The position numbers and the translations under genes are program-made. Source: Parvibaculum sp. (GTDB lineage Bacteria > Pseudomonadota > Alphaproteobacteria > Parvibaculales > Parvibaculaceae). Taken from it: a DNA stretch of 49,908 bases. This document shows positions 34,922 through 40,221 of this stretch, one piece after another. Under the pieces are notes generated by a model. It was not told where the DNA came from. It saw only the letters and a program-made list of their open reading frames with translations, and searched no databases. The DNA is taken from positions 1-49,908 of the forward strand of contig JAUXOE010000076.1 in the NCBI GenBank assembly GCA_030682415.1, given 5' to 3'. The first letter of the stretch is position 1; every line of letters begins with the position of its first letter.

Positions 34922-35296
34922 ATGGACGCAATGTCTAAGAAGGTCCTGATCGTCGAAGACAATGAGCTCAACATGAAGCTCTTCCACGATCTTTTGGACG
35001 CGCACGGCTATCAGACGCTGCAGACGCGGGACGGCATCGAGGCGCTTGAAATCGCGCGGACGAATCGCCCCGACCTTATCCTCATGGACATCCAGCTGCC
35101 GGAAGTGTCGGGGCTCGAAGTCACCAAGTGGATCAAGGAAGACGACAGCCTGCGCTCGATCCCGGTGATCGCCGTCACGGCCTTCGCCATGAAGGGCGAC
35201 GAGGAGAAGATCCGCGAAGGCGGCTGCGAGGCCTATATCTCGAAGCCGATTTCGGTGACGCAGTTCCTGGAGACGGTTCAACGTTTCCTTCGCTAA
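34922..35296 (+). CDS. divK: Single-domain response regulator DivK
   Basis: [30 protein letters not shown]...[22 protein letters not shown]; followed by pleD. Confidence 0.95.
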
Positions 35297-35326: not shown

Positions 35327-36700
<1,374 letters not shown>

Positions 36701-36854
36701 AGTTTCCTTCTTCCTGTCGAGATCAGATGCAGTCTTCGTTTGTCTTCGCGCAACAAGACTGCCGGTTAACCTTGTATATTCATGGTTAACATGGCCGGTC
36801 CCAGAAATGCGGCCCGAATTCCTTTATTGGCACAACAGAGCGTGCTAGCTTTTC

Positions 36855-37107
36855 TATGGGCATTTCGGTTTCGCCGCCGATGCGCATCCGCTCTCGCTGG
36901 GGGGTGAGTCGGACGCGGTACAGGTGGCGATTTGTGTCCTCGTGGGGTGCTCAGGTCCGCCGCATCTCCTGGGTCCGCGAGGCACGGCCGGTCGGGGCGT
37001 GGTTCATGGAGTGGCCTCCTCTGATAAGCCGCGGTTACCCCGGCCGGCCACCTTTCTATTTCGATCGCAGCAACGAAAAAGCCGGTCCCTGAGGGACCGG
37101 CTTTTTT
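36855..37107 (+). ncRNA. Candidate structured non-coding RNA between pleD and rpmG, family unassigned
   Basis: Complementary helices: 36883-36893/36906-36917, 36923-36927/37048-37052 enclosing 36938-36945/36975-36982 and 36988-36997/37038-37047; ends at a strong terminator; no supported ORF. Confidence 0.5.
37077..37107. terminator. Bidirectional intrinsic terminator (serves rpmG and the + strand transcript)
   Basis: aaaagccggtccc-tga-gggaccggctttttt. Confidence 0.92.
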
Positions 37108-37133
37108 GCGTTCGGAGCGCCTGGAGACGGCGC

Positions 37134-38776: not shown

Positions 38777-39457
38777 TCAGGCGCGGATCAGGGGTTTGTT
38801 GTTGCGGTAGGCGTAGAGCGGGATGCGGGTGCGGGGGCCTTCCTTGTGGCGGCGGCCGATCTCGCGGAGGACGAATTCGGTGACGTCGATCACCGGCAAT
38901 TTCAGCGCATCGGAGAGCGGATACCAGTCGAGTTCGCTCAGTTCGCCGCTGCCTTTGAGCACGCCTTCGGCGCTCGAGGCCGGGGCGGCGAAAAAGCGGG
39001 CGTGGAAGCGGATCGGGCTCGAGGCCGGCGTGATGGCGCGGGCGACGAAATCGAGGATGTCGAGGCGGGGCGCAATCCCGCGTTCGCGGAAGGGCTGCCA
39101 GCCGTTGCCGGATGTGTCGCCGACCTGGCCGGGGCGGGCGACGATGAGGCCGGTTTCCTCGAAAGTTTCGCGGATGGCGGCCATGGCCAGCGCCTCGGCC
39201 TTGGCGCCGGCGGCGGCGCTTTGCATCATCCGCGCGGTCTCGCCGGAAAAACCCGTGGCCGGTCTTGCGAGAAGATCGCCGGCATCGAGCTTGCCGCCGG
39301 GAAAGACGAAAGCATCGGGAATGAACTTCATCCGCGCATGGCGGCGGCCCATCAGGATCAGCGGTTCGCTGCCCGCGTCGTCGATCAGGACGAGGCTGGC
39401 GGCGTCGCGCGGGCGGATGGCGCGGGGGCGCGGGGCTTCGGCATTCACGGCCATCAA
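38777..39457 (-). CDS. NUDIX hydrolase
   Basis: FIPDAFVFPGGKLDAGD ... AMAAIRETFEETGL (Nudix box). Confidence 0.9.
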   Translation of the reverse strand: MMAVNAEAPRPRAIRPRDAASLVLIDDAGSEPLILMGRRHARMKFIPDAFVFPGGKLDAGDLLARPATGFSGETARMMQSAAAGAKAEALAMAAIRETFEETGLIVARPGQVGDTSGNGWQPFRERGIAPRLDILDFVARAITPASSPIRFHARFFAAPASSAEGVLKGSGELSELDWYPLSDALKLPVIDVTEFVLREIGRRHKEGPRTRIPLYAYRNNKPLIRA

Positions 39458-40221
39458 TCCTCGATCGCGTCGCGGATGGCGTTGCCGCCGCGGAAATAGA
39501 TGAAAGGCACGGCGCGCGCGTTTTGCGCGGCGACGGCCAGGCGCAGGCGCTCGTCGATCTCGTCGAGGACGACACGGGTGATGTTGGGCAGATCGAGATC
39601 GCGCGCATCGGCGATGGTCAGCCAGTGCAGGCCCTGCAATTCGCCGGAGCCCGTCGTCTGCAGCGGATCGCCCTGAATGGTTTCGGCGTCGGCGATGAAG
39701 AAGCGGGTGTCGAAGCGGCGGGTGCGATAGGGCGGCGTGATGGCGCGGGCGACGAAGTCGAGCGAACCGAGTGCCGGCGCGACGCCTTGTGCAAAGTATT
39801 CGTTCCAGTCGGGATGACTGCTGCGCGGCGGCGCCTCGACCGGGCGGCCGATGACGAGACCGGTTTCCTCGAAGGTTTCGCGGATCGCGGCCATGGCCAG
39901 CGCGCGGGCGCGGCGTTCGGTCGGGGTGCCGCGCATGCGCGCCATCAGGCGGCGTGTCACCGGGTCACGCAGGTCCTCGGCCGGGACGATGCGGCTGTCG
40001 GCGGGATCGACGCGGCCGCCCGGGAAGACAAATTTGTTGGGCATGAATTTGTGATCGGCGTGACGCTGACCCATCAGTACCTGGGGCGCGGCCGCGTCGC
40101 GGCGGACGATGATCAGGGTCGAGGCATCGCGCGGACGGACCGCCCGGCCTTGCGTGGTTTCGCGATATTCCTGCTCGCGCGACTTCTTGGGGTCGAAAGC
40201 GCCCCGCGGTTCCTCGCTCAT
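39454..40221 (-). CDS. NUDIX hydrolase (paralog of the adjacent gene)
   Basis: FMPNKFVFPGGRVDPAD ... AMAAIRETFEETGLV; ATGA overlap with 38777-39457. Confidence 0.9.
   Translation of the reverse strand: MSEEPRGAFDPKKSREQEYRETTQGRAVRPRDASTLIIVRRDAAAPQVLMGQRHADHKFMPNKFVFPGGRVDPADSRIVPAEDLRDPVTRRLMARMRGTPTERRARALAMAAIRETFEETGLVIGRPVEAPPRSSHPDWNEYFAQGVAPALGSLDFVARAITPPYRTRRFDTRFFIADAETIQGDPLQTTGSGELQGLHWLTIADARDLDLPNITRVVLDEIDERLRLAVAAQNARAVPFIYFRGGNAIRDAIED

Follow-up and report, generated by a model that had tools for sequence, protein, structure and literature searches.

The RNA encoded at positions 36935-37054 (+ strand) of the window, by which we mean the whole 49,908-nucleotide stretch of Parvibaculum sp. 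DNA that was analysed, is with high confidence EcpR1 as it occurs in Parvibaculum, where it would act in trans and be transcribed independently from the gap between divK-pleD and rpmG. In related bacteria EcpR1, also named SmelC291 and Atu_C6, is a small RNA induced by stress, and it slows down the cell cycle. Comparison of the entire window with Rfam returned two matches, a tRNA at 2859 and RF02500 (Atu_C6, EcpR1), the latter scoring 85.7 bits in cmscan, where the gathering score is 60, and covering the full model (1-113 of 113). The sequence-only reading had put this RNA forward as new and had named an unambiguous hit to an existing Rfam family as the outcome speaking against that claim; this is what the search gave, in the place published for EcpR1, and the novelty of the RNA is rejected. 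A characterised cell-cycle small RNA is thereby placed in Parvibaculum and no new class is opened, and we show here that the RNA belongs to the EcpR1 family, that its structure is conserved, that its SL1 loop is invariant and by prediction single-stranded, and that synteny is shared.

In Sinorhizobium meliloti, EcpR1 is located between the divK-pleD operon and rpmG and comprises two stem-loops, with an invariant SL1 loop UCCGCCGCAUCU, followed by a terminator (PMC4414408). The same gene order is found here: a divK-like response regulator (34922-35296, + strand, recognised by response-regulator domain matches) adjoins pleD (35327-36700, + strand; NCBIfam NF007135 PleD, 660.6 bits, cut-off 474), which is followed by EcpR1 and then by the convergent rpmG for ribosomal protein L33 (37134-37304, - strand; TIGR01023, 75.7 bits, cut-off 23.95), and nearly all loci have retained EcpR1 between pleD and rpmG. 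With rpmG convergent, the earlier argument that no gene follows in the sense direction, so that the RNA is not a leader, is borne out, and a free-standing, structured RNA with its own putative promoter-like element and terminator is supported. Open frames overlap the gap on both strands, but covariation at the RNA level and the Rfam match account for the conservation, and a protein encoded in the gap is considered unlikely. Elsewhere in the window, at 38777-40221, two adjacent minus-strand ORFs resemble tandem NUDIX-type hydrolases by eye.

The letters and coordinates given in the sequence-only reading were correct, and the folding of the gap that it had judged by eye proved far better than chance, with z = -4.75 for 36855-37110 and z = -3.46 for 36918-37056, none of 200 shuffles being as good in either case. 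In a structure alignment of 23 Parvibaculum loci, representing 22 distinct sequences, five helices belonging to three stem-loops (SL0, SL1 and SL2) are supported, with 98.4% of cells paired and double-sided changes at 11 pairs against a shuffled mean of 4.4, all slid versions being far worse; the covariation check that had been suggested, RNAalifold, recovered the main helices unprompted when run on these loci. The two hairpins that had been described as enclosed are real and correspond to SL1 (36938-36982, + strand) and SL2 (36986-37049, + strand), whose helices (helices 3-5) show 97-100% pairing and include double-sided changes: both helices of SL1 are 100% paired across the 22 distinct sequences and include doubly changed pairs, while SL2, which has a UCCUC-containing loop, is 97.3% paired with four doubly changed pairs. 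The SL1 loop UCCGCCGCAUCU (36956-36967, + strand), the known mRNA-pairing region of EcpR1, is identical to the published loop and invariant in Parvibaculum, with a predicted unpaired probability of 0.95-1.0.

The 5' side of the locus is occupied by a further hairpin, SL0 (36869-36933, + strand), which is supported by covariation of its basal helix, folding of its middle stem and a covariance-model search, and which has no Rfam match over its length. Its basal stem (36871-36878/36923-36930), closing a hairpin of about 60 nt (36871-36930), has 99.4% of its cells paired and double-sided changes at two pairs, and its apical stem (36893-36898/36903-36908) carries a GGGG loop. Between species the middle stem shares only about 60% identity, but 23 of 23 sequences fold it with 7-12 pairs, and the apex GCUGGGGGG is invariant in the Parvibaculum alignment, a combination of free stem and fixed apex that is the pattern expected of a functional RNA hairpin. 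SL0 also appears in the single-sequence fold. The 5' hairpin of the sequence-only reading thus exists, although it is merely the inner part of this longer stem-loop.

The closing helix that had been proposed to enclose the hairpins, GGTGG(36923)/CCACC(37048), did not survive the alignment: across the 22 distinct Parvibaculum sequences 60.9% of its cells are paired with no compensatory change, and its middle pair is broken in 20 of 22. GGTGG instead pairs with TCGCCGCC (36871-36878) and so closes SL0 as a separate 5' hairpin, which leaves no three-way junction. A wholly new class of structured RNA built around such a junction could draw on the strong folding of the sequence and on the lack of an Rfam match at 36869-36933, but it faces a full-length RF02500 match in that family's own locus and a junction helix that is unconserved and whose 5' strand is part of a different helix that covaries; we give it almost no credence, and the Rfam match and the broken closing helix have already refuted it.

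A different question is whether SL0 belongs to the EcpR1 transcript at all. A likely sigma70-type promoter, CTTTAT-N17-CTAGCT, can be read by consensus at 36822-36850 (+ strand), and in nearly all Parvibaculum loci CTTTAT and a hexamer resembling a -10, with 17 nt between them, are found 13-19 nt upstream of SL0. This arrangement fits better than the TTGGCA (36827) suggested previously, which is a poor -35 element because just 12 nt separate it from the likely -10, and which is not kept in all relatives. From the conserved CTTTAT element just before it, SL0 would appear to form the 5' end of the EcpR1 transcript, and promoter-like element and terminator together would delimit a primary transcript of about 250 nt (36857-37107, + strand), its start being uncertain by a few bases. 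The strong terminator noted earlier is upheld as a predicted Rho-independent hairpin of 15-16 bp ending in a T-run (approximately 37075-37107, + strand), which was not listed by a simple terminator scan; with an A-run before the hairpin and a T-run after it, the terminator is possibly shared with the convergent rpmG. SL0 might alternatively represent the 3' end of the pleD mRNA or an element that is processed off, with EcpR1 starting near 36908, as would accord with S. meliloti, where transcription begins just 29 nt upstream of the dominant 5' end and this stretch is dispensable (PMC4414408). We regard such a separation as unlikely, given that SL0 covaries as RNA, that it directly precedes the core in Parvibaculum and that the conserved promoter-like element is placed immediately ahead of it rather than within it. 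Judging from these sequence comparisons, the EcpR1 transcript of Parvibaculum probably includes SL0.

The covariance model of SL0 finds one copy in each of 23 Parvibaculum genomes, directly 5' of the EcpR1 core, as is expected because the same loci built the model; the search found no second copy in genomes of the genus, and among the genomes searched outside Parvibaculum SL0 was not found beside EcpR1. A single weak match (E 0.0068) was obtained in genome G033, far from the EcpR1 of that genome, and one Parvibaculum genome with a weaker EcpR1 (G019, 63 bits) gave no SL0 match. SL0 would probably act as a 5' stabiliser or as a second binding site of EcpR1. It is conceivable, though we consider it rather doubtful, that the hairpin was gained as a second functional domain, its apex GCUGGGGGG, fixed on a stem that covaries while its sequence is free, serving a new partner (an mRNA, a protein or the RNA's own SL2 loop), perhaps with targets other than gcrA and dnaA. 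A kissing interaction between the SL0 apex and the SL2 loop is predicted at -10.6 kcal/mol, a value equalled or bettered by 18% of shuffles, and an antisense search with the apex gave only one one-mismatch site elsewhere.

Of 27 genomes of Parvibaculum, a genus assigned to Hyphomicrobiales, Parvibaculaceae in the NCBI taxonomy, 25 have an EcpR1 match above the cut-off, as do 35 of 40 genomes of the order set. A class-wide draw of 385 genomes gave at least ten matches, the counts being lower bounds due to the strict filters of that search; five of ten class-wide matches belong to two other families, and four of these five have pleD and rpmG adjoining. In the two Parvibaculum genomes where EcpR1 was not found (G013 and G022) a close pleD is also missing, and what matches pleD there are paralogues with an identity of only about 40%; these drafts therefore probably lack the locus. 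G027, a genome of another genus (g2) of the same family, is listed as 100% complete, and in it neither EcpR1 nor a closely related pleD orthologue was found, which appears to be a joint loss of the EcpR1-pleD locus. An exact SL1-loop match in that genome (L154) was rejected as EcpR1, since it lies antisense in an apparent coding gene with no EcpR1 around it.

The gcrA and dnaA mRNAs of S. meliloti are repressed through pairing with the SL1 loop, a function of the loop that was proven by mutation (PMC4414408). By extension from that species, EcpR1 would be made under stress or on entry into stationary phase, may be trimmed to its SL1-SL2 core, and would repress its targets through antisense pairing of the SL1 loop with the 5' regions of their mRNAs; in Parvibaculum it is likewise a likely trans-acting mRNA repressor working through this loop. 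Duplex tests set the pairing of the SL1 loop against that of scrambled loops and of same-locus windows. For the gcrA region belonging to the window, the share pairing at least as strongly was 96% among scrambled loops and 81% among same-locus windows (65% and 66% as the genus average); for dnaA it was 14% and 19%, respectively, with 44% and 21% as the genus mean. Since mRNA folding is ignored and the loci are related, the test neither proves nor excludes targets. A whole-genome search for the antisense of the SL1 loop gave 56 one-mismatch sites besides itself versus 37 for the reversed pattern and is therefore uninformative. As judged from these predicted duplexes, gcrA is not supported as a target in Parvibaculum and the signal for dnaA is weak, and the SL1 loop is kept while one proven target of EcpR1 apparently is not. 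That the match is a decaying, non-functional remnant in this lineage might be argued from gcrA and dnaA pairing not being clearly kept and from the lack of both EcpR1 and a close pleD in genus g2, but throughout Parvibaculum compensatory changes preserve the stems and the SL1 loop does not vary, making decay very improbable.

Among known EcpR1 RNAs, a putative copy in Methylosinus sporium also adjoins rpmG and has SL1 and SL2, with its transcript seen by RNA-seq (PMC12403871), whereas the Parvibaculum transcript is predicted; target prediction in that species gave no clear cell-cycle set (PMC12403871). Compared with S. meliloti EcpR1 and RF02500, the Parvibaculum RNA is alike in its core, in the SL1 loop UCCGCCGCAUCU and in SL2, and it shares with the S. 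meliloti RNA the pleD-rpmG locus, the orientation, a promoter-like element and a terminator. It differs in that S. meliloti EcpR1 pairs with gcrA whereas no such pairing was evident in the Parvibaculum duplex test, and in that the dispensable 29-nt leader of S. meliloti (PMC4414408) is replaced by the hairpin SL0 of about 60 nt. With the EcpR1 family already known, the only fresh detail is this extra hairpin, a 5' domain that seems specific to Parvibaculum among the genomes searched and would be simple to test.
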